Assembly (NCBI GenBank): GCA_021234155.1 | Contig: JAJEKV010000160.1 | Coordinates: forward strand, 1,033,196 to 1,097,195 | Source: Isoetes taiwanensis | Taxonomy: Eukaryota > Streptophyta > Lycopodiopsida > Isoetales > Isoetaceae | Direction: 5' to 3' | Length of the DNA: 64,000 bases | Shown: positions 20,190 to 55,063 of the stretch, piece after piece | Numbering within the stretch: the first letter of the stretch is position 1 | How the letters are laid out: every line of letters begins with the position of its first letter | The notes under the pieces: generated by a model | The model's input: the letters and a program-made list of their open reading frames with translations, nothing else | Databases searched by the model: none | Told to the model about the DNA's origin: nothing | Translations under genes and position numbers: made by a program

Positions 20190-20927
20190 GCACTCTCTGA
20201 TGCCCATTCTTTGTGCCTATTTTGATTCTAATTTGGTTTAGTTTATTGTGGGTTGTTCATATGATCTGCATACTTTATCATTTATATTTAGAATGTTATG
20301 CTACGAGCAAATTATTAGGATCTTCAAAACGGGTTATGCTTTAATGCTACTGGAGATAAATATAGAAGGAAAGCCAACGCATTCATTTGTTTATATTTAG
20401 ATCAGTTAGACCTTCTCATTGTTTATGAATTCAGACCATTCAATGCATGCCACGATGGCATCTAACATTTAGTCATACCATGTCGTGAATATAAATGCTA
20501 GATTGATTTATTTGAGACAATTAATGTTTTTGCATCTTTGTAATCTTCTAAAAGCCAATTTTTGCAGTGCCCTCTGGTATCTAGCAGCTGGTATCTAAAC
20601 TCTAAGAGACGAGACGTGATTGAAATATTGTCCAGGAGGTCTGGAAACATCTGAACAGGTGATAAGCTTCTGCTAATTATTTTGAAATGGATCTGCATAT
20701 ATTTTGAGTGCAGGATGATCTTATTGTTGTTCCCTCTTTTATAAGCAGGCAAATGAAAACGGACTGGATGAACAGATTGGATGAGCAAAGTATCTGCAAA
20801 TGCAAGTCTATGGTCACGGTGGAAGAATAAGGTCAATGCACTTTCCCTCCTTCTAAATTATGTTTCATGTATTTTGCATGGGCAGATTACGTGCCGAATA
20901 TCTGTATTGCTGCAAGTTTCTACCTTA
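20190..20927. other. Host DNA between LTR element and TIR element
   Basis: AT-rich, no coding stretch identified; possibly 3' UTR or intergenic. The last four bases (CTTA, 20924-20927) are the left target-site duplication of the next element. Confidence 0.5.
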
Positions 20928-20953
20928 AAGCACAATTTCATTAAAATGAGAAA
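20928..20953 (+). repeat. Left terminal inverted repeat
   Basis: Matches the reverse complement of 32397-32422 at about 24 of 26 positions. Preceded by CTTA. Confidence 0.75.
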
Positions 20954-22852
20954 TTTCGTGATTCCAATTAGGAACGAAAATCCTTTTTAGTCAAATTTAT
21001 GCCAATTTTTTGAGCAATTATGGCGCCATTTAAAAAAAATATGCATCTAAAGTGCCATTTATTGGCGCCATTAAAAATTCTAGCATTGCATAAAATGAAG
21101 CTGGAGAAACATAACATCACAAAAAATAGTTAAAAATTCCGAATTCATAGATTTGCATATTAAAAAATTTGCCAAAACAGGCAAGGACTCGGAAGAGGCA
21201 GCCTGTATACAAGAGTATTATGTACAATTTACATTATTTTCATACAAAATTCAGGGTTCCTCATCAGGAACAGGCTCCACAATAGGATCAGGTTCCGTAT
21301 GGCCAGGGCCATGGCTAGAAGAAGCAACCATAGGATCTCCCAGAAAGCTCTCGAACGCTGTGGCAGTGAAATTGGGATCATCAAGAATGTCCATATTGAA
21401 TTGTGTATTCTTGATCACATCATAGTCCACATCGGGTGGAGCTTCGGGCATTTCTGGATTTGGTGGATCTGACTTCTTCAACTACAAAGCTAGTGGTGGT
21501 CTCTCGTCACGAGAGGCAGTGCGATGATGGTAGGATTCAGTAGGCGGTCAAGCCTATCAAGAATCCCCTTTAGGCACTCATGCTTAAGCGGGTCACTTTC
21601 GAATACAATGCAAAATCTCTTATTCAGCAATGAAGCCCGGCCAAAAGAACCACAGGAGAAGTAATCAAACACCCCTGTTCCTGGCGGTACCATTTTCTGC
21701 ACGAGGTACGAGCATGTAGCAGGACCCAGCTGGTTTCTCATAATTATGTCCCCTGGCAAGCCTTGCCACCGCATGTACTGAATCTGCTGTTGCAGAGCTT
21801 CCCGGCCATAGCCTCGGTCTCCCCGTCTTCGTCTTCTTCGTTAGGCACAGGAACTGGTGGCAGTTCTTGAGGATGATCGTTGAAGGGGAACTTGAGGTCA
21901 ATAACTTCGACAGGAGGACCTTCAGTGGCCTGAATCTTTGTGGCATACACTAGTGAATGGGCCTCCTGAACTCCTGGGGGAGGCGGATTCTTGTATTCGT
22001 CCTCATACATGCCAATATAAACTCTGGATCTGGAATCCAGATCATCCAATACAGATGAAATCAAAAAGTTGTGCTCCGGCCTTGCAAAGACTACTATCCA
22101 AAAAGAATCAGCTGTGGTGTTCTTTACAAACAGATTAAAGAAATTTGTTAGTGTGGTTTTGTCCCACATTGGAAATATGCCTCTAGTGTCGGGGCAATCA
22201 AGGATACTGATGCGGGAGTGCAAACAACTTGTCCCTTTGTCAGTCATTAGTTCAACCGCGAACGGAAGTCTTGATTATCCTCTCTCTTCAAGACAGCATT
22301 GCGTATGAATCTTGCCAAGGCAGGTGGCACGTTACCGAAAATGCCTTCCTTGCCCACTCCGGTTTCAACCCACTTACTATGCAAGGTGGCCATGGAAATC
22401 AGGTCGGTATCCTCGAAGCCCGGCACTGCAGTACTGAGATCAGTGAAGGACTTGAACTTCCTCGGAAAATTATCCTTCACGTATGCAAAAATCTCCTTCT
22501 TCAAGAAAGATATGGATCTTAGTGTCTTTGCCCTTGCCTTGAAGAATTGCTTACCTGTATAATCACTAGTGACCTTGACGAAGGTCTTCCCATCCAGCAC
22601 TTCCTGGAACAGAACCCGACAGTCTTCGTAGTCCATACCCCTCATGCACCTCAGGTAGGTCTGACTGAAGTAGTCAGATTCTTTTGCCCAGTTACAGGTA
22701 ATAGTTTGTCCCTTGTTGTCTTTTAGCTTGCAAGATTTCCACAAGTTCCATAGGGACACGAATAACTGAAAAATATCCCTCGGCATGAAGACCCATTGGT
22801 TGAAATCTTTAGGATGCTTACCACGCATGGTAACCCACCCGAGCCGATAACG

Positions 22853-22971
22853 CTGAAAACAACAAGAAGTTAGACGAACATTTAATGAGCAAATGGCGCC
22901 GTGGCGCCGTTTGGTGAACAAATGGCGCCACGGCGCCATTTCATAATCTTGCAGAAAATTAAAACATGTAC
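22853..22971 (-). other. Intron 2 with two GGCGCC palindromes
   Basis: 119-bp intron, donor CAAG|GTACAT and acceptor TTTTCAG|CG. Two palindromic variants (about 22891-22911 and 22920-22941) fill its centre. Confidence 0.7.
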
Positions 22972-24749
22972 CTTGTATGGTTCTGAGCGAGATTGCCCGC
23001 GTCCCGATGGATCAGGCTTCCCGCATAGAGCATATTGCTGCCGCAGGTGGGTTATGTTATCAATGAATGGCTCTTTGAAAATAGTCTTCGCAGTGATATC
23101 ATTGACTTCACAATCGAAGCTGCAGCATTCTGTTTCGTTGATCGTGTGCGGACAACACTCGGCAATTCCGTTGAAGATAAATCTTTGACATTTGCTCTTG
23201 GGACTTTGGTGTGCCGAGTCTTCTACATACAAGTTGAGCAGCCATAACTGAATGATTACCATTCACTATATAATAGTGCATCCCCATGAGGTCATCCTCG
23301 GTTTTCCAAGGGACCAGTTTGTTTGTGAGGGGATTGAATGGAATCACATCAGCGGGAGTGAAGACTGGATGTGGGTCTCTCTGAAAGGACTCCACCAAAG
23401 TTTTGACGTGCTCCATATTCCTTGGTCTAGATGTCAGATTTGCTGGTCCTTGATATAATTTGAACACGTCTATTTTTTTAATGAATGTGACACCGAGAGG
23501 AAACAGATGCCGGTGATCGTAAATTTTTTGCAGTGTATTCTCTGCCGTCTTTTCCTCTTCTGACCTTTCCACCCGAAGATTTGCAGGCACCTCTAGCAAG
23601 TGCTGAGCTATTCTTAATGTGAGCTTCTTTGGCTCTAGCTTCTTAATGGGGACCCTTTTGGCCGGGGTGTCCGCAGGATCCTCGCTATGCCTTGGGCTCG
23701 GAGGTTCACCACCACTTCTAGGACTTCCAGCAGGACTTGGAGTCCGAGGCGCTCTCCTTTGTTTTTTTGGTGTCCTCTCCTTCTCAAGGGTCTCCGGCCT
23801 GTGCTTCTTCTTTTTCCCATCCGTTTCCTCTGTCTCCACTTCCTTTCCCTCCGTTTCCTGTGTCGCCTTTCCTTCCTTCTGCCCCTTGCCTTCCCTATCC
23901 TTTTCTTTCCTTGCCCTTTTCTTTTCCTTCTTTTCCCTCTTTTCTTTATCTTCCTTCTCTTTCTTTTCCTTCTCTTTCTTTTCCTTCTCTTCCTTTTCCT
24001 TCTCTTCCTTTTCCTTCTCTTCCTTTTCTTTAGATTGTTTCTTTTCCTTCTTTTCCATATCTGGATCTTTGTGATCCTTTCTCTTAACTTTCCTCTTGCG
24101 CCGCCTTTCCTTCCTCCGGTTCTGGACATCCTCGAGAAGATGAGGAGTCTTTGTAAATTGCAGGTGTATCCCTAGGTTGTCTTGTCTTCTTCTTGCTCCT
24201 TGTTTTTTAGCCGTGCCGCGGTCCACAATATGTAGTTTCTTTGGGCTATTGCCTTGACAACGAATGAAGGCGAGTTTTTAGACTCGTTCATCCGATTATG
24301 AAAGAATCATAAAGCCCCTCAAGATTTCTTGTGGACCTTTGATGTCGACTTCTTCAAAGTCAATGCGACAATGACAATTTTCAGCCTTGCTTCTTCGCCC
24401 GAACCGGCTACATTTGCAATGCTAGCGGACATTGAGTTGGGATCATAAAACTTCCGGTCCACATAGTACACAATTATTCTCTGCTTCAAAGTATCTTCAC
24501 AGACCACCACGGATCCAATCACTCGCGGCCGCTCTTGGCAACCAACTTCATTTGGACCAAGATACCTCGGCTGGTAAATGCCGGTTTTTTTACATGTCTG
24601 TCTCCCTTATAAGGAGGCAGAGCTCTCTTTGATCTCCTTTAGAGCCTCAGCGTAAGAGGGGCTCACCCGCATTACTTCCATGCACCAGTACCTGTCTATC
24701 AGCATCATAGTCTGGTCGGATTGAAATTGTGTTTCCGCACGTAAGATAG

Positions 24750-25420
24750 CTGCAACAAAGAGGCATCAGCAACAAAGAGGCATCAGTAAATGGTTTGAAC
24801 AAGCGGTGCATTAATAGGTTAGGAGTTGGCAAATGGCGCCGGGCGCCATTTGTATCGATCGATGCATAAGCATCGAGGCGACATCGTATGCCTATCCCCC
24901 CGTTTGGTCGAAGAGATTTTCCACCCAGCTCAAACCACTCCCCTTCGCAATATTCGAGGAAGATGGTTGAAGGAGAGTGGATCGGACCGGTGGAGGCACC
25001 GCGATTCGTAGGGAGATACCACAAATGAAAACGCGGCAATGCACGGATGACTAGGCAAACAACAAGTTCCCAATGTATGCTAATAGACATCAAATGGCGC
25101 CATGGCGCCATTTGCCAACAACAAGGCCCTATGGTAAGCTAATACACATCAAATGGCGCCATGGCGCCATTTGCCAACAACAAGTCCCAAATGTATGCTA
25201 ATACACATCAAATGGCGCCATGGCGCCATTTGCCAACAACAAGACCCTATGGTAAGCTACCAGGCATCCTAAAGTAAGCTAAGACTCCTAAAGTGCACTC
25301 AATCATCCAAATGGCGCCATGGCGCCATTTGTCAACTATAAGACCCTAAAGTGGTTACCATGCATCTAAATATGGCGGGCTTCATTTAGCCCAAACAAAC
25401 AATGCAAGTAGACGACATAC
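24750..25420 (-). other. Intron 1 with clustered GGCGCC palindromes
   Basis: 671-bp GT-AG intron. It contains five palindromes of the form ATGGCGCCATGGCGCCAT or close variants, at about 24831, 25091, 25150, 25209 and 25308. Three lie in 59-bp tandem units starting near 25079, 25138 and 25197. Confidence 0.7.
25079..25331. repeat. Tandem 59-bp units and palindromes, ATGGCGCCATGGCGCCAT
   Basis: Three consecutive 59-bp units plus a fourth separated palindrome. Each has a 24-bp perfect inverted repeat centred on CCATGG. Variants with the same GGCGCC core occur elsewhere only inside this element (21021, 21063, 22891, 22920, 24831, 25558, 26843, 26884, 26927), apart from unrelated single GGCGCC sites. 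Confidence 0.85.
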
Positions 25421-25487
25421 CTGTCCCTTGAGGTAAGCTAGCTTCTGTCTCCACATTTTGTTGAGCTCCAGAATTGTCCATTTCCAT
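25421..25487 (-). CDS. First coding exon of the ParB/methyltransferase-like gene
   Basis: ATG at 25487; reads MEMDNSGAQQNVETEASLPQ and ends G|GTATGT at 25421/25420. The frame joins cleanly to 24749 after the CAG acceptor, giving ILRAETQFQSDQTMML, which supports a real spliced transcript. A second in-frame ATG lies two codons downstream. Confidence 0.6.
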
Positions 25488-26464
25488 TTCGCGCGCCTTG
25501 AATTTGGTCCGAAAACCGGTGTGTATCTAGATGTGTTGAGGCGCTGAACTGCGGGGAAATGGCGCCGTAAATCACCGAAAAAAGGATGAAAAGGGTTGCT
25601 TTAGGCGCTGGCGCTTAGGGCGTGTATTTAGGCGCTGGGGCTTATTGGCAGCTAAGGTCGAGTATTTGGGAGCCGGAATCGAAAAACGAATAAAGCTTAA
25701 TGAAGCTTCGTAAAAAAACAGGTGACCAACTAGGGGCTATCGACGTCCGGCGCCCATGCGGCGGTCAGGGGCGCCCATGCATGCCCATACGCTTCACGCC
25801 CGTTCGCGTGGCTGTCCATGCCGCGGCATGCCCGCACTCCACTCCCCATGCCCGTGGCGGTCCAGCGCCCATGTTCGGCCATACAATTGAATTTTGAAAT
25901 TGAATATTTCCATCTTAAACCCAGCCCAAATTTGAACATAAAATTCAAAATTCCGCCCCGCCCGCTTAATTAACATAAAAGTCAAAATTACCAGATATTG
26001 AAATTTGATCACACACACATCAAATTTGAATCGTCCGTTTGAAAATTGTACTTTGCCTTTAAAGCTCCCTCTTTGCCCGTAGTGCTCCCACTTAATGCGA
26101 CCATGCTGTGGATTAGCCGCACAAAAATTCAAACGCGAGGATTTTTTCGTGCCGCAGTTCGGGCGCTTTGAATCCCGCTGTTAGTCTCATTTTACTTCTT
26201 CGCATAAAGGCGCTTCTTTTCTCGGCGCCCTGAAACTTTGCAAAGCGCATCGCGTCTTTGTCGGCGCTTTCTTCTTAACTCGCGAAATCGGGTGATTCTT
26301 GGCGCTTTCTTCTTCGCGCTTTCTTCTTGGCGAATCCTCCTTCTTCTTCGAATCTTTCTTGGGCTTTCTTCTTGGCGCTCTTCTTGGCATTCTTACGCCT
26401 TAATATATCTGCTTGGGATCGGCTTCATTTTTCTGTTCTATCTCTTGCTCCGGGACATACCACT
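25488..26464. promoter_or_regulatory. Divergent intergenic region between the two element genes
   Basis: About 980 bp between the two outward-facing start codons, so it probably contains both promoters. GC-rich patches with CGCCC and GGCGC words lie at 25560-25900 and again at 26140-26400. No TATA box could be assigned confidently. Confidence 0.45.
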
Positions 26465-29400
26465 ATGGATCTATCTAATATCAAGTAAGTCCCTTTGTTT
26501 GGTATAAATTCTGTTCTATTGCTTGCCATATTGTATAGAGTGTTCAAATGCTGACATTAATCTTTGCTAGGACCGAGAACCTTGGTTTCAATTGCAAAGT
26601 TGGCATGGGGTGCCCATGTTATGCATGCCCGCTCTTATTGACACATATACAACAATGGGAGCAAGAATGCATAACATAGGCACCTCGTAGATTTTGTGAT
26701 GGAGTTAAGCCATTTGGTGGAAATGGTGTTGGATCAAATAAAGCCATTTGAAAGTGAAATGGTGTTTGGATCAAATGAAGCCATAGCGCCATTTGATCCA
26801 AATTCACACCTATGAATGTGCCATAGGTGTGAATTTGGATCAAATGGCGCCATGGCTTCATTTGATCCAAACACCATTTCGACCAAATGGCGCCATCTTC
26901 ATTTGATCCAAGTGTTCACCGTTACACCAAATGGCGCCATGGCCATTTAGCTCCAAATTTGGACCAAAATTTATACTTTTGTACTAAATAAGCCATTTTC
27001 GCTTATATTTTTGCTTATTTTTCCTCTATTTCATATGTTCTCAAAAGTATCGCCTTGTTTGATTGAAACGGGTTTAATTTTCCCCTGCACAACCTATTCG
27101 GGTCGGAAGGACAATTGTTGCCCTGGGACATATTTTGAATAGAACCACTCTTCATGGGAAGGAAATAGATCCTTCAAATGTAGCAATTGAGGTCACTTGA
27201 GTCCGTGATCCCATCGACAGAAGCTTCCAGTCCCAGGGAGGGGCGGATAACATTGGTGAAGCAAAGAGGGCACATTCATTCAAGTGGCCTAAGAGGGATG
27301 TAAAACCAAATGAGTGGCCCTCAAGTGAAGATACGCCTTGAGATCCCTCAATTTGCCCTCTTCACAAGAGGATTCATCTAGTAGTCCATCCGTCAAGAGT
27401 TCACACGGACATCGGTTTCACCGCTCACCGTGGTGAACCAAGCAACACAAAGAACAAATGAAGAAGACGAAATAGTAGAGGAGATTGGAGGTCATGAGAA
27501 TCTAGTTGCCCGCCTTGGTCTCAAAGTTGTTTAAGCCCCAAGATGAGACGATCTACTACCCGAACAGATCTACTAGGTTTGCCATGCTACATTCTTCACT
27601 CCTCAGACCGGATCTAAATATTCTGAGGCTTAATATAGTCTTTAGTGATCCTCGGGATGCTATAGACGATGAGTTCTTGGGTGTATCAAAGGTCGGGCTT
27701 TCGAGTGGGTAATATAATAGATCCAACGGGAAACCAAAATATCGTGTCATGTCATGCTTAGGCCGAGAGGCCTATAGCTAATGGCCTAGTAACCCGGGAG
27801 ACCCATCTTTGTTTTGCTTCATGATGGTAGGACAGGTTCACAACATTTACAAGCTCTTTGCCGCTCTCGAACATGATGATTTAGAAGTTGAGTGCTTGGA
27901 AGTCGATGTTGAGAAGCAATTCAAGAGGAAAAGGAAATATACATATGTGAAGAGGGAGGAGGGAACCAAAGGGGATGGCAAGGAGGAGAGGATGTGCGCT
28001 TCCAAGGCAATCAAGAGTGCTCTAAAATCAACATGCCGCAAGGACTAATGTGTCAAAAACCGAAATTCCACGTAGCAAGTATGTGCCTTAAGAAAAGAAT
28101 TTTATTCTCAATCAAGCAAAGGCCGTGGATTACGCTTTTGTTTTTGATGTGTTGAGTGTAACTTATACAGGCGCCGGAGGCTTAAAGTAGTGGTCCGTGG
28201 AGTGGAGTGTCACAATTCGCATGGCGCTGCGGGTTTTAGGAGTTGCTCACCACGTTTTATAGTTGGAGGAAGAGGTTCGAAAGTTAGGTGGAAAACCGGG
28301 CGGAGCATGGTAATACTGTGCTCTAAGAAGCCTAGATCCGCGGACACTAGCTACAGAAAGTGTGTTTGATACCTTCATTAGTGAGAATGCAGAGAGCATT
28401 CCACATAGAAGCAAAAAAGGAAAGGATGATATAAGGGAGAATGTTCGCAAACTTCCTTCCATCCTTAATAAGAAGAGCATACATAAGGAGGTGGGGCCGT
28501 GGTGGAAGAATTGACAGGAAAGAGTGTAACCTTGCCCTCTTTTTACAATATTTGGAAGAAAGAGTTTCCAGACGTCAAGATAGCAAAAATACAAAGATTC
28601 TCCAAGTGTAACATATGTGTAGTCATCAAGCGTAAATTGGAAAGAACAAAAGATATAAGGGAGAGGCGCAACCTTTCAATTCAACAGCGGGCACATATGT
28701 TGGAACAACGTTCCTGTAGGAGTCAATATTGGCATTGGCGTGCATTATCACATCGTTCGCCAGAAAGTCACCTCTGCATAATACATGATAAGATGGATCA
28801 GGTCAAAACACTCACACCAAGAAGTCACCATCTCGCAAAGTCTGTTTGGAGAGGAGATCGCTTGAAGAGCAGCTTGACAGGAGCATTGACACATGGTCAT
28901 GGTGGACGGGCTTATGGCCATTTCTCTCTTGATCTTTGGAAGGATGACTCAAACTTTCATGTTGGATCACTTTCTAGGATCCTACACTATCTTGAGTTGC
29001 CGGAAGAAGACAAGTGTGGTGATTTGTGGAAGCAGAACTACAGATTGCAAATTGATGCAAGCCCTAAAAGATACTCGACCACTGCAACATAAGCTAGTGC
29101 AGACACAAGAGAAGATGCCTTCATCTTCTAGTGCCAACTTAGAAGGCTTCAATCCTCTTCCTCGAAATCTCTACTTACAGTTGGATAATGCATCGGGTCA
29201 AAATAAAAATAGATATGTGTTCTCCTACCTCTCTTATTTGACATGGCTTAAGGTATTCGATGAGATTCAGGTTGGCTTCATGATGGTTGGGCACACTCAT
29301 GACGATATTGATGCATTGTTTGGGAACTTTTCGACGTTAATGAGTTCATCGGATGCTCTAACTTTGCCCGAAGTTGCTTTTACTTGTTTAGTAAGTGCAA

Positions 29401-30191
29401 TGCAAAGTCTCCCTGTTCCATATTTTGTGGATGAAGTTCCAGATTGAAAGGCTTTGTCAAGGGATATATCCCCTCGATAAGGGCCAACGCCTAACGTGCC
29501 ATACCGAGCCATTGCTATTCCGATTTAAAATGGATGGGAAATGGCCCATTATGCAATATAAGATGCCAACCCATAAAGAGTGGATTCCAGAAAATGGAAT
29601 AAGAATGTGGAAGGAGGATGAAAATGGTGAGCCAACGCTACAACGTGGGTGCCTAAAAATATCCCTCCAAGGAAGACATTGAAAGATCTCCCCGGCCCGG
29701 CGGCACAAAGATCGCAAAGTACATAGCATTATGGAATTCCTTCAAGCAAAAATCAAGAAGATAGTGTGTTTGCACGACAAGACAAAGCAACTATGGATTA
29801 CCGAACGAGATTCTTTTGTGTTTGGAAGATGTATCTCCGTGGACGACCTCAAAATGATAACTTTTGGTCAAGCGCATAAGGCAAGAACCTCTACAAGCCG
29901 CATTTACTCCGTGAGGTCGATGAAGCCGGCGTGGTTTGTAAGACCTTTGCCTACATATTGTGGGCCGCCAGATGGGCCGCCCGGTGTTGCCTATGGATGA
30001 GTTCGATCCTCATGCACATGTTACTTAAAGGTATGTTTGTTTTAGTCCGACACGGAGACGATGAAACTCCAACGTGGTTGGGCTTTTACGTAAGAAGATG
30101 CCATCCTAGATCCGAGTCTACCAATTATGGTCACATTTATGTATCATGGTGGATGCCCGTTGGTCGTGACTATACTGTGTTGCTTAACTAA
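26465..30191 (+). pseudogene. DUF7869-like gene, broken frames
   Basis: A plausible start exon 26465-26484 (MDLSNI) ends at GTAAGT and joins at 26571 after TTTGCTAG, giving KTENLGFNCKVGMGCPCYAC, a Cys-rich start. The core begins about 28365. One frame (28499-29040) has FPDVKIAKIQRFSKCNIC, HDKMDQVKT and GRAYGHFSLDLWKDDSN. A shifted frame (29100-29447) has LQLDNASGQNKNR and VGHTHDDIDALFG, and the next has FRFKMDGKWPIMQYK. The C-terminal part (29740-30191) has WLGFYVRR and VSWWMP. This motif order matches the eukaryotic DUF7869 family, whose biochemical role is unknown to me. The conserved Asp residues in DN-SGQNKN and GHTHDDID could be an RNase H-like catalytic set, but that is an inference. 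Region 27060-28340 is poorly readable. Confidence 0.65.
26700..26960. repeat. Degenerate GGCGCC half-palindromes in the first intron region
   Basis: Several ATTTGATCC / GGATCAAAT words alternate with CAAATGGCGCCAT half sites (about 26775, 26843, 26884, 26927), forming overlapping imperfect inverted repeats. They mirror the intact palindromes of the opposite gene. Confidence 0.65.
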
Positions 30192-31556
30192 ACGCTTATA
30201 ACCCAATCCATCGATCCATCAAGGTATGAGAAGTTAGATGCCATACATTATGCATGGGATGCAAATGGCAAAAGACCAAGAAATTCAGATTCCAAAATAC
30301 ATTGTTGACATGTGGGGGACATAGCATTAGCTAAAAGCTCTCAATCTCAGGTCATGTTCTCGATAATCATGTATGTAATTTCTTTTGCTATAATACTTAA
30401 GCATTTTGGACAATTAATACGTTTGTCGATACATTATGCTTATACTAACATCCTTACATCTATTATAATAGGTGTTTAATACACATCATTACATCGATGC
30501 ACACATTATTGATGGCATACATATAATTTAGATGCACATATTATTGATGGCATTATAGAGTCGATGATTCACTCATCATCAATCCTCGCTATTGTGATCG
30601 CATTCACTCAGAGGCATGCGCCGGGAACCCCAAAGAAGATGGATCACAACACGAGTAAGGCCGGGCAATCACACTCACGACCTTCTCGCTTTGGATTGTA
30701 AGTAAGGATCCGAATTTTAACACCTTTATGTATGCAGCGATTAATATCATTGTAGCTCATGGAGCAAAGAATGGTCTCAAACCGATCATCATAAATATTA
30801 TAAGCCATGATGGGAGATGAATGACTTACCGAATGGAGCTGCTTTTATAGTCGTTATAGAATTATTGGTATAATACTTCAGCATTATTGGTATTATCGTG
30901 AGCATTATTGGTATTATACGTCAAAGATTATTGGTATTATACTTCAACATTATTGGTATTATACTTCAACATTATTGGATTCAGTAGCTATAAATTCTTT
31001 TACCTTGTTTTCACTTCTCACTTTTCATCCTTGCTTCTTGCTCCTTCATCTTCCTTGTTCCTTGATCTTCTTGCTACTTGATCTTCCTTGTTCCTTGATC
31101 TTCTTGCTACTTGATCTTCCTTGTTCATTGCTTCGGCTACTTGATCTTGATCCTTGTTCCTTGCTACTTCATTCCCGTGCTCCTTCCTACTTGATCTTGT
31201 TCCTTGCTCTTGATCTTGCTCTTTGCTACTTGATCTTGATCCTTGTTCCTTGCTACTTCATTCCCGTGCTCCTTCCTACTTGATCTTGTTCCTTGCTCTT
31301 GATCTTGCTACTTGATCTTGTTCCTTGCTACTTGATCTTGATCCTTGCTTCTTGCTCCTTGATCTTCCTTGTTCCTTGATCTTCTTGCTACTTGATCTTC
31401 CTTGTTCATTGCATCTTGCTACTTGATCTTGATCCTTGTTCCTTGCTACTTCATTCCGTGCTCCCCGCTACTTGATCTTGTTGCTTGCTCTTGAACTTGC
31501 TTGCTTGCTCTCCTCCGTGTTCCTTGCTCGTCGGTGATCCTTGCTTGCTTTTGCAA
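30192..31556. repeat. Low-complexity stretch between element genes
   Basis: 30192-30840 shows nothing recognisable. 30850-30975 holds about five ~22-bp repeats of TATTGGTATTATACTTCA type. 31013-31550 is a pyrimidine-rich tandem array built on CTTGATCTTG(A/T)TCCTTG and CTTGCTACTT words in a ~75-90-bp higher-order pattern. Confidence 0.8.
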
Positions 31557-32096
31557 ATGATTGGACCCAATCCTCCCCGGGCTACTCGTAAGGCTGCAAG
31601 CATGCCCCGTGCATTCTCATGCGGCCCTGGAATGGATGAGCTATGGGACCATTTCTTGGAGTGGAGGTTGCGCCCACGGTCCACCAAGGAGCTTACAATG
31701 GAGTTGATCAACTTCATTCTGGAGCGATTTGATTGTGGTCATGAGCCACTGATGGAAATTAATCCATCTGAATGTTATAGGAGACTTGCAATGAGGGGAA
31801 TGCTTGAACCCCCTCCTTATCTGGACGAGATGCTACAGCAATTGAGGCCTCTTCTTCGTGCTGGATATTTAGCACACTCTCTGGATGCATACATATCAGA
31901 GTTCATTCATGAAATTTGTAAGGGACAGATGTATGGCCTTATTAGGGTGTACTACAATGAGTACAACGGTTTTGTGGAGTTGGGTCCGCTCTTCTTCCGT
32001 GAGTATTATCCTGTGGAATTACTTTTTCTAATGACTAGGTACCCCATATGGTGGGAAGAATCAGCATGGGATGAGCGTGAGCTCTTGACTCCCTAA
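31557..32096 (+). CDS. Uncharacterised 179-aa protein, intact ORF in the TIR element
   Basis: ATG at 31557 follows the pyrimidine array; stop TAA at 32094-32096. The protein starts MIGPNPPRATRKAAS and is otherwise acidic and aromatic-rich, with LWDHFLEWRLRPRST, ECYRRLAMRGMLEPPPYLDE, a short hydrophobic patch PVELLFLMTRYPIWW, and an end of ERELLTP. No signal peptide or membrane span is clear. I do not recognise a family. Unlike its two neighbours in the element it has no frame break over 540 bp, which favours selection or recent origin. The frame is open upstream into the low-complexity array, so the start could be earlier. Confidence 0.6.
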   Translation: MIGPNPPRATRKAASMPRAFSCGPGMDELWDHFLEWRLRPRSTKELTMELINFILERFDCGHEPLMEINPSECYRRLAMRGMLEPPPYLDEMLQQLRPLLRAGYLAHSLDAYISEFIHEICKGQMYGLIRVYYNEYNGFVELGPLFFREYYPVELLFLMTRYPIWWEESAWDERELLTP

Positions 32097-32396
32097 CCCG
32101 TGACGTGGGTTAGACCTCAGGCTAAGGGAAAGGGAAGGGGAAGGGGTTAGGAACCCGGGGAAGGTTACTAGGGACATACATAGTTCATACTTTGGTCTCT
32201 ATTGTGTTTGGAAGTTGGTATATGATACCGTGTTATTATGTTCTCTAAATATTCATGTATGTATGATACACGGGTACTGCACGTGTATAGAACCCCTGCA
32301 TAAGGTCTATGATACAGGGTACTGTACACGTGTATACAACCCCTGCATAAGGTCTATACAACCCCCATAATAAAAAAATTCCAGTTTACTAAAAAT
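32097..32396. other. 3' region of the TIR element with G-runs and a 46-bp tandem repeat
   Basis: G-runs at about 32126-32146 (GGGAAAGGGAAGGGGAAGGG) could form a quadruplex. Two 46-bp units start at 32263 and 32309 (ATGATACA...CCCCTGCATAAGGTCT). Confidence 0.65.
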
Positions 32397-32422
32397 TTTC
32401 CCATTATAATGAAATTGTGCTT
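32397..32422 (-). repeat. Right terminal inverted repeat
   Basis: Inverted partner of 20928-20953, followed by the CTTA duplication at 32423-32426. Confidence 0.75.
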
Positions 32423-32552
32423 CTTAGTATTGTTTGACATTAATCTGCACCAATTTCAAAACGACATTGACTCCAATTGTAAGATAAGCTAAATTTTCCT
32501 CTTACCCTTTTTCTTTGGAATGTATGTTTTCTTATGCTTCTTACCTTGTTCA

Positions 32553-32890
32553 TGTCAAGATATATGCGATATTGAGACCACCATCTTGCTAGACGTATTA
32601 AAGCAGTGACTCAGCACTCAACACAGTGGTGCTGAGAAAGTGTTGAACTGAACAGAGTCAGCACCTTATCAGCACTGAGCACCAACCTAACTAAGTAACG
32701 GCTGTTATTAGTGGGCAATGGGTGAACAGCTAATACTATTCTTAGTATCACCGTTTTGTTTATATCATTATACTTCATGTATTGACACACAACATTGAAT
32801 ACAATTCCATTTTGCCTTTGTTTTAGGAGCTTGCGCTCTCGGATATCGGTGTGCATCCTCTTCTCTCCCTTTCTTGGTGCAACCTTGACA
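32553..32890 (+). repeat. Copia LTR, forward (338 bp)
   Basis: TGTCAAG...CTTGACA ends, followed directly by TGGTATCAGAGC. About 338 bp, the same family as 43182-43515. Confidence 0.9.
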
Positions 32891-32902
32891 TGGTATCAGA
32901 GC
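32891..32902 (+). promoter_or_regulatory. Primer-binding site, initiator tRNA-Met
   Basis: TGGTATCAGAGC immediately after the forward LTR. Confidence 0.92.
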
Positions 32903-32940
32903 ACTAGGTGTGTTGTGATTGATTCAAGATCAACACAGCA

Positions 32941-33059
32941 ATGGAGAAGGATGCAAGCTACAACCAGATTACCTTCCCTGGCGGTCGTGCAATTCAAATC
33001 TTTGACGGCACAGGTTTCCAGCAATGGAAAAGCAGAATGATCTTCATTCTCAAGGATGA
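32941..33059 (+). pseudogene. Copia gag N-terminus, truncated
   Basis: ATG at 32941 starts MEKDASYNQITFPGGRAIQI and continues FDGTGFQQWKSRMIFILKD, the N-terminal gag signature of plant Copia elements. It stops being gag after 33059, where reversed LTR sequence (TGTCAAGGTTGCACC) begins in mid-gene. The remainder of gag for a related copy is at 42269-43131 on the other strand. Confidence 0.85.
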
Positions 33060-33180
33060 TGTCAAGGTTGCACCAAGAAAGGGAGAGAAGAGGATGCACA
33101 TCGATATCCGACAGCGCAAGCTCCTAAAACAAAGGCAAAATGGAATTGTATTCAATGCTGTGTGTCAATATATGAAGTAT
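33060..33180 (-). repeat. Reversed Copia LTR, U5 part, split by an insertion
   Basis: Matches the inner third of the reversed LTR 43182-43515, starting at the terminal TGTCAAGG. Its continuation lies at 40648-40876; together the two parts make about 340 bp, the right length for one LTR. Confidence 0.8.
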
Positions 33181-33962
33181 ATAATAATAATGGCGTTTTA
33201 TGATAGTCTGTGCGCAATCTTGGCCCTTAATTGTTTTACTTCAATTTTATCCCTTCGATTTACCGGTTTCTTTTCCACAACCTGCGCTTCTTATTTTTGT
33301 TGTGGATCTATATGCAGACGATTGCCTAGAGGCAGCTTATTCTGCCATAGTCGCTCCGGTAATGCTCCTCGCATCATCTTACGTTTGACCTTAATCTGGC
33401 AACCTTTCTCTACAAGAAAGGCATGGCTTATGGTATATTTTAGCCCCAACATCATTTTTCAATTTTACTGGCAAACCTCTTGGGATCTATGGCATTGTTT
33501 GCCAGAGGGGTTTTGCTGCTAGCGGCCATATATGACTCCACACAAAAGAAAAATGGAAGCATGACTTTCAAGACACCGTGTTATGGGAGCACTATCGACC
33601 GGTGATTCATTTCAGCATCTAAGTTATTTGTTGTGCTTCCACCGACATTCAAATTTAAATAGACACGAATGGTAAGATGCGACCAAAATAGACATAGAGA
33701 TATTTTTTTAAGCAATAGACACAGAGAGGTTTCTTAAGCCATAGGAAAGATTCTGGCCAATATCTCTTCCCTTTGTTCTCTATATCTTCTTTGATGGATT
33801 TAGGTTCGAACTTTCTATTTGTTTTTTGCAATTTCTTTGTCGAAATAGAATGCAAGAGAATTGGATAGTCTGTGCACCATCTTGACCATAGACTTTTCTT
33901 AATTTAGTGTGATCCCTTGGATTTAACGGTTTTGTTTCATCCGCACTGTCTAATTCCATGCC

Positions 33963-42268: not shown

Positions 42269-43131
42269 TCAATGGATGAGGTATATATCTATTAATCCTT
42301 GCTTGGAAGGTGCTGGAATATCAGAAATTGGCATCCATTTATTGGGTGCTACTGCATCGTCTGATATCCAGAAAGTAGAAGGATCTAAATCCACTACTTC
42401 ATGCTTAATAGGAAAAGATAATCTGCTGCCAATGTGCTTCTCCTCCTCATCGTGGTCATCCCCATTTAGGGTAGATTGAGTCTTTGAATGCCCTGCTGCA
42501 AAGAGAGTGGCATGATCATCTTTACCTGCATCTTGCCTCATCATGATCTCCTCCTTAATAAGAGTGATTGCTTGATGGAAGTCCATTTCTTTGTCTTGCA
42601 TGAAGCTGCTGCACAAAGAATCAAATGCATTAGGTAATGACCTGAGGAAGAAAAATAGTTGCATCGATTGTGAGATCTGATGCTCTTCTCCAAAAGCTTC
42701 AATCTGCTGGAAGGTGTGCTTCATGTGATCCAAGAACTCGTCAAGACTTTCAACAGTTTCGTCCCAGCACATATCCATCACCTCTGCATACAAGTGCCCA
42801 ATCTTATGGGTGTTTTGGTCATGCTTCTCAATGAGGAGCATGCCACAAATCGTGACTATTCTTCTGCTGGAACTCATCAAGGATAGAGTCAGCTAAAGAG
42901 AGCCCGATATATCCCATTGCCTTGTCATCTCGGCGCTGCCAAGCATGCAAATCAGCAATATTCTTGACATCCGGTGCAGGTTCTTGACCATTGACAATTC
43001 CCCAAACTCCTTCATCCTTGAGAATGAAAGATCATTCCGCTTTTCCATTGCTAGAAACCTGTGCCGTCAAAGATTTGAATCGCACGACTGCCAGGAAAGG
43101 TAATCTGGTTGTAGCTTGCATCCTTCTCCAT
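42269..43131 (-). pseudogene. Copia gag (UBN2-type), frameshifted
   Basis: From ATG at 43131 the frame reads MEKDASYNQITFPG and IQIFDGTGF, then breaks. It resumes as WQRRDDKAMGYIGLSLADSI near 42950-42880 and is open from 42880 to 42269, with SLDEFLDHMKHTFQQI, LFFFLRSLPNAFDSL and ITLIKEEIMMR. These are the helical gag core motifs of plant Copia elements. There is no convincing zinc knuckle and no protease, integrase, RT or RNase H follows. Downstream frames 42252-41845 are open but unrecognised. Confidence 0.8.
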
Positions 43132-53681: not shown

Positions 53682-55063
53682 ATGGCCGCCATGGGCCCTG
53701 GTCCTGCTTCTACCTCTGTCGACATTCCTGGGAAAGATCCTGAAACATCCACAGTGCTGCTCGAGACAGGTACCGGAATGATTCAAAGCCTTGCGCCTGT
53801 TAAGAAGATCCATCAACACCTCTGCGCGTAGGTTCTCTTCTTCTATTCCATTTTTTTTCGTTCAAATGTACTTTGCTACTAATAGTGTTCAATTCATCAG
53901 CACTTAGATATGCAGGGTCTGGTATATTAAACCTTAAAATGATTTCCCAGACATATTGTTTGTGATATTATTTTGGCTTAGGATTTTTTATTGGCCATTT
54001 CCTAGACGTATTGTCCTGAATTTTAGCTTTTCTGGCTTATTATCCTGCATCAACGCTGTACGCTTTTTCTTTTTTTTTTCTGTTTTAGGTTTTTGTATTA
54101 GATTGAGCATTCGCTTGAGTTTAGGGCTTTGATTAACAAGGACTTATATTTCATTTTATATGTTCATTTTTGGACTTGTATCTCATTTTATATGTCCATT
54201 TCTGGTTTCTTTTAGTCCTGATTAATTAGCGTTTTATACATACTTCCTTTGTGCAGATTTCATTTTTATGCTTATGACATGTCAAGACAAGTAGAGGCAC
54301 ACCACTATTGCAGTCATGTGAATGAGGAAGTGAGACAATGTGTAATATATGACACTCCATTTGAAAATGCTAGGATCATTGGTATTGAGTACATTATTCA
54401 TGAGAGGCTGTTTAACACACTGCCAGATGAGGAGAAAAGGCTGTGGCATTCTCATGATTATGAGGTTAAAGGGGGCATTTTGTTCATGCCAGATGTTCCT
54501 AAGATTGCAGAACATGCAGAGATGGCTAAGCTGGTGAAATCATATGGAAAAACCTTTCATTTTTGGCAATACGATCGTGGGGATGTTCTGCCCCTTGGAT
54601 TGCCACAGCTTATGATGAGCTTCACTAATGATGGCCAACTTGAACCTTTATTAGCAGAAAGTGAGTTCCCTTTTCATTTCATATGTCGATGCTTTAGCAC
54701 TGCTATAATGTTTTTTCTGGCTATATTTTTTACAGCTACTGCTACAATGTTCACAATGTTGTTATTTTTTACCAGCTGCTATGTTGATTTGCTATGTCTT
54801 TTGCTGATTTATATAGATCAATGTCTACAATGATTTCTATTATGCTTTTTATGATGCTCTCTGTTCTATGTGAGATTAAGAAAGGTTTTGACTAGCTAAT
54901 ATGCCTCTCAGATATTGAGAAACGCTTTGATGTGTCCTTTGAAAAGAATGGAAAGAACAGAGCTGATCTTCAGGGGCCGGACTTTGGCATTCATCCTTTA
55001 GCTAACCCATGGACAAAGGGCATAGGCCTGGCCACAAAGTTGAAGGAAGCTGGAGATGGTTGA
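53682..55063 (+). CDS. Oil-body-associated protein 1-like (DUF1264), 3 exons, intact
   Basis: Exons are 53682-53827, 54257-54660 and 54912-55063. The joins keep frame exactly (146+404+152 = 702 nt, 233 aa plus stop) with GTAGGT/GTGCAG and GTGAGT/CTCTCAG splice sites. The protein starts [20 protein letters not shown], then [74 protein letters not shown] and IHPLANPW, all hallmark blocks of plant OBAP1/DUF1264. OBAP1 associates with seed oil bodies and affects their size and stability in angiosperms; the role here is inferred. Length fits the family. A GTG-initiated extension upstream is open but the ATG at 53682 fits homologues. No frame breaks, unlike the transposon-borne genes. Confidence 0.92.

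Follow-up and report, generated by a model that had tools for sequence, protein, structure and literature searches.

The 64,000-bp stretch of Isoetes taiwanensis DNA analyzed here (the window) contains, at positions 20928–32422, a genuine and very abundant cut-and-paste transposon of 11,495 bp with terminal inverted repeats (TIRs). It is likely to be an autonomous-type element of the Sola-1 kind that combines a DUF7869 transposase with a palindrome-binding ParB/methylase accessory, which would protect or regulate the element. The window element belongs to one lineage (lineage A), and a second lineage in the same genome (lineage B) carries the same pair of genes between different termini.

Termini, copy number and gene layout

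The limits of the element were set by its TIR pair, its target site duplication (TSD) and collinear copies. The left TIR (20928–20956, plus strand) and the right TIR (32394–32422, minus strand) were defined by inverted-repeat pairing and by the genome count of such ends. The arms are 29 nt each and 90% complementary, with the 16 outermost nucleotides identical, and CTTA is read directly outside both of them (20924–20927 and 32423–32426, plus strand), so that the matching ends and flanking CTTA reported in the initial annotation lie exactly where it had placed them. When the whole genome (1,658,258,908 bases in 1,110 pieces) was searched with the lineage A terminal 16-mer, allowing at most one mismatch, there were 1,502 forward and 1,498 reverse matches, compared with 27 and 11 for a reversed-pattern control. 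An exact 4-bp TSD was found in 22 of 27 head-to-head pairs of lineage A ends (19/24 and 3/3 in two sets; the chance expectation is ∼1/256 per pair), and the duplicated bases differ among them. Empty sites were sought with 280-bp queries in which the two flanks of an insertion (C78 or C222) were joined with one TSD copy kept; these matched tens of uninterrupted repeat copies, up to 99% across the junction, and for C222 the length was unchanged in most matches. The expectation that the termini would recur with 4-bp TSDs and empty sites was thus realized, at ∼1,500 copies per end.

Several known classes were considered for the window element. A retroelement identity was rejected. EnSpm/CACTA elements have CACTA-type TIR ends and a 3-bp TSD, and MuDR/VANDAL elements have a MuDR transposase and a 9-bp TSD. 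The former identity was rejected on the ends, which read AAGCAC or AACAAR in lineages A and B, and on the 4-bp TSD, and the latter on the DUF7869 gene and, again, the 4-bp TSD.

All three gene units proposed for the window element, two of them divergent, are present (minus strand, ∼24759–21281; plus strand, ∼27084–30363; plus strand, 31557–32096), with the extents of the divergent genes set by tblastn with copy C1066. The same layout is found in copies of 10–12 kb (C43, C44, C88, C93, C950, C1034 and C1066), and other full-length copies are collinear with the window element end to end, at 67–92% identity by segment. Full-length copies carry both the DUF7869 gene and, divergently, the ParB/methylase-like gene, and among the matches listed there are at least 37 divergent ParB/DUF7869 pairs, 4.5–9.5 kb and mostly ∼6 kb apart, versus one match in a wrong-side arrangement; the predicted co-occurrence of both genes between such ends is therefore confirmed. 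The third unit, a 180-aa open reading frame (ORF) at 31557–32096, was found by tblastn in several full-length copies, with 90% identity in C950; the same search did not find it in C1066, and it has no Pfam match. Shorter elements of 2–7 kb also have lineage A ends, and some retain a remnant of the DUF7869 motif (C48 and C224) or palindromes (C179 and C221); they look like deletion derivatives.

Elsewhere in the window, a 123-bp inverted repeat (97% complementary, with a 167-bp spacer) lies just to the right of the transposon at 32769–33181 and is a possible foldback element. A fragment of a host-type DUF1264 gene is located at 54222–54833 (PF06884, E = 2e-65), and retroelement remnants are located at 2009–2605 (RVT_1, E = 1.5e-14) and 42269–42892 (a copia-type gag match below the cut-off).

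The DUF7869 protein and its divergent partner

The DUF7869 gene of the window (27084–30363, plus strand) matches PF25273 at 28890–29447 with E = 1e-28. Its reading frame is shifted near 29009–29030 and disturbed again further on, and the copy is not intact. Some of these frameshifts may be sequencing errors because the assembly was built with Nanopore long reads (PMC8566536). Copy C1066 has an intact DUF7869 ORF of 1,136 aa (PF25273, E = 4e-41); upstream of the domain there is a weak match to the winged HTH_29 (residues 426–460, E = 0.0047). Motif conservation and tblastn located three acidic motifs in the window, HDKMDQ at about 28784–28801 and the second and third (LQLDNASGQNKN and GHTHDDID) at 29133–29384. 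The motifs D-x-MDQ-x-KT, LYLQLDN....NKN and VGHTHDxID..F are invariant between lineages, and their DDD-like order is that expected of an RNase H-like transposase. A dN/dS of 0.09 indicates purifying selection on DUF7869; the constraint is weaker (0.63) in the closer lineage A pair C1034–C950, both of which are frameshifted. A profile search found no RNase H-like relationship for DUF7869, searches of PDB and NCBIfam with the lineage A proteins gave nothing useful, and no DUF7869 relatives were found in IMG/VR or in GTDB contigs. A single-sequence AlphaFold model of the window DUF7869 core had a pLDDT of 34, too low to inform on an RNase H fold.

Lineage B is represented by the DUF7869 copies with the best Pfam fit, whose identity to the lineage A protein is only ∼31%. 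Its copy C1076 is an element of 8,536 bp with different TIRs (AACAARGTTTAAAATGAAAC...) and the TSD ATCC. The lineage B TIR has 1,065 and 1,078 matches in the genome versus none in either control, and an exact 4-bp TSD was found in 11/11 pairs (C1076 and ten further). C1076 contains a divergent ParB/methylase–DUF7869 pair arranged as in lineage A. Since TIR elements with 4-bp TSDs accompany DUF7869 in two lineages, the protein is taken as the transposase, as originally suggested; it is almost certainly so, and would carry out catalysis with its DDD-like motifs.

The partner gene in lineage A has at least two exons. The N-terminal exon or exons (22969–24759, minus strand; tblastn with C1066) encode a charged low-complexity stretch and a ParB-like part with the motif NMEHVKTL...YYIVNGNHSVMAAQL, which is conserved among lineage A copies. 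The C-terminal exon (21281–22597, minus strand), delimited by tblastn, motif comparison and dN/dS, encodes an amino-methyltransferase-like domain. No Pfam match to ParB was obtained in the window or in the lineage A accessory protein; in hhalign, a bacterial ParB profile aligned at the expected motif with a weak, non-significant score, and a CcrM-like profile also scored weakly against this protein. The window accessory has no profile match to PF01555, the N6_N4 (beta-class) amino-methyltransferases that include CcrM, MboIIA and RsrI, and the catalytic motifs [DNS]PP[YFW] and FxGxG are absent from it. In all readable lineage A copies, GSGTT of motif I is replaced by CGSF (DYFSCGSF), and DTRG or DLRA stands at the DPPY position of motif IV, an alignment that is positional, as the profile match is not significant. 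The dN/dS of the methylase-like domain is 0.13 between C1066 and C1034, a rough value given the high dS of ∼2. By these measures the lineage A domain has lost its catalytic motifs yet is under purifying selection, and it is probably a non-catalytic binding module. Between the same two copies, synonymous divergence is ∼0.57 in DUF7869 and saturated (∼2) in the methylase-like exon, and this inequality suggests recombination or module exchange between elements. No relatives of the ParB-like and methyltransferase-like parts were found in IMG/VR, and none that were convincing in phages.

The accessory of lineage B has an above-threshold match to PF01555 (E = 2e-15), with GSGTT as motif I, DIPY as motif IV in a neighboring exon and MboIIA as the best PDB match of its methylase. 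One part of it shows weak alignment (E = 0.003) to the ParB-like region of lineage A. It resembles PF01555 enzymes in all these features; both Isoetes accessories differ from those enzymes in that a eukaryotic transposon encodes them together with a ParB-like part, and lineage A differs further in its lost motifs. The lineage B accessory probably also methylates DNA. When the best 150 of 1,444 PF01555 candidates in the genome were scored, 150/150 were above the cut-off, and among the best 150 matches each of PF01555 and DUF7869 there are 22 divergent pairs within 13 kb, versus 0.09 expected and two in other arrangements. The gene content of lineage B rests on one full copy (C1076) and this genome-wide pairing. 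The pair is therefore a conserved module rather than a peculiarity of a single element, and within it the ParB/methylase gene serves as a conserved accessory. The accessory role first suggested for it, in DNA binding or methylation marking, is strengthened by the second lineage, but the loss of the catalytic motifs makes it doubtful that the window's own protein methylates DNA.

Lineage-specific palindromes

The window element contains 12 copies of the perfect palindrome ATGGCGCCAT, and there are none in the remaining 52.5 kb of the window. Eight of the 12 lie between the two divergent genes (25094–25328), three upstream of the DUF7869 gene (26844–26940) and one near the left end (21020–21029). 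Lineage A elements have 3–16 copies each. The double palindrome AAATGGCGCCATGGCGCCATTT, 22 bp long, has 957 matches in the genome versus 0 in the control; of the first 50 places, 49 lie inward of a listed lineage A end and the remaining one lies 2 kb from a ParB match. In lineage B the palindrome is GTATAAATTTATAC, with 25 copies in C1076 and none in 6.5 kb of its flank, and 12,556 genome-wide versus 17 for the reversed control. The non-coding DNA of C1066 is no longer alignable with that of the window copy (10-mer conservation, 0.6%); C1066 still contains 24 copies of the half-site AATGGCGCC and 23 of GGCGCC, where ∼1.3 of the latter would be expected.

The palindromes are mostly in non-coding DNA, mainly between the divergent genes and away from the ends, as would be expected if a regulator encoded by the element read them. 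In Arabidopsis, VANC proteins of VANDAL elements bind family-specific non-coding repeats and undo silencing (PMC10398659). The Isoetes elements share with them an element-encoded accessory and short family-specific non-coding repeats, the likeness of function being our proposal; the transposase superfamily and the accessory are different, and anti-silencing has been shown for VANC and is extrapolated here. The lineage-specific palindromes are thus candidate self-recognition sites like the VANC motifs, and we infer that the ParB/methylase-like protein is their reader. A fuller version, which we put forward tentatively, is that the protein of each lineage reads its own palindrome as a parS-like array and that binding, with or without methylation, averts host silencing, the lineage A methylase now being a non-catalytic binder. 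It is somewhat unlikely that the palindromes are instead bound by the transposase, which is the situation in CACTA elements, or are promoter elements for host factors and not targets of the ParB/methylase protein. The weak helix-turn-helix match of DUF7869 and the position of the arrays between two divergent genes would fit such sites; however, the palindromes are mostly not subterminal and are wholly different between the lineages. This lineage specificity, together with the half-site kept in the otherwise unalignable C1066, suggests a co-evolving binder encoded by the element.

Relationship to Sola elements and significance

The claim of the initial annotation that this gene pair had no precedent among named superfamilies fails, since the kind is already known. 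Sola1-1_Ec32, described from the brown alga Ectocarpus in 2025, is a giant TIR DNA transposon of the Sola-1 superfamily in which an accessory gene with ParB-like and N4C/N6A DNA-methyltransferase domains lies opposite the transposase (PMC12477816). Moss is among the known hosts of Sola elements, which generate 4-bp TSDs and encode DDD transposases (PMC10741241). The Isoetes elements share TIRs, 4-bp TSDs and cut-and-paste insertion with empty sites, and also have a ParB plus DNA-methyltransferase gene opposite the transposase, in lineage A by motif and position only. They differ from Sola1-1_Ec32 in size and host (8.5–12 kb in a vascular plant, compared with 21.5 kb in a brown alga), in the degenerate methylase of the window lineage and in the palindrome arrays of both lineages, of which the accessible part of PMC12477816 makes no mention. 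The element is classified as Sola-1-like by structure and gene content, since all features compared agree with this kind, Sola elements having been compared by description only. This comparison by description and not by sequence, together with the fact that DUF7869 is named nowhere in the literature searched, leaves room for a superfamily separate from Sola, based on DUF7869, that acquired the ParB-methylase accessory independently or shares it. Such a superfamily is unlikely, given that the TSD, size, DDD-like motifs and opposite-strand ParB-methyltransferase gene match the published descriptions of Sola elements and of Sola1-1_Ec32.

It is highly improbable that the ParB/methylase gene is a passenger without function for the element. 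A broken window copy that no longer has the methylase motifs is what a passenger might look like, but the same gene occupies the same place in two lineages whose DUF7869 proteins are 31% identical, its methylase-like domain is under purifying selection, and a ParB-methylase gene is also reported from brown, red and green algal transposons (PMC12477816). That the inverted ends arose by chance or as an assembly artefact is ruled out for practical purposes by the end counts, TSDs and empty sites described above, and nothing was found in its favor.

In the Sola-1-like model that we favor, the DUF7869 protein would have a helix-turn-helix ahead of a probable RNase H-like core that contains the D-x-MDQ, LDNxxxxNKN and GHTHDxID motifs, and would cut at the TIRs, the stagger at insertion being 4 bp. 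The accessory, encoded by the divergent gene, would combine ParB-like DNA-binding and amino-methyltransferase-like parts; most likely it binds the palindromes in the element's own non-coding DNA and protects or regulates the element, as VANC proteins do for VANDAL, with anti-silencing as the presumed effect. The lineage B accessory would probably methylate as well, and that of lineage A would probably act as a binding module.

As far as the literature searched shows, the vascular-plant lineages, the link to DUF7869, a constrained domain that has lost its methylase motifs and the arrays of palindromes are new. DUF7869, hitherto an unexplained domain, of which this one plant genome has at least 150 copies (the number scored among 9,910 candidates), would gain a function as a transposase, and the brown-algal design of a ParB-methylase transposon would extend to a vascular plant. 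With one palindrome per lineage as a candidate cis target, the idea of transposons that mark their own DNA becomes directly testable. In addition, the presence of many copies of a bacterial-type N6/N4 methylase gene in the genome of a plant is relevant to reports of plant 6mA or 4mC.
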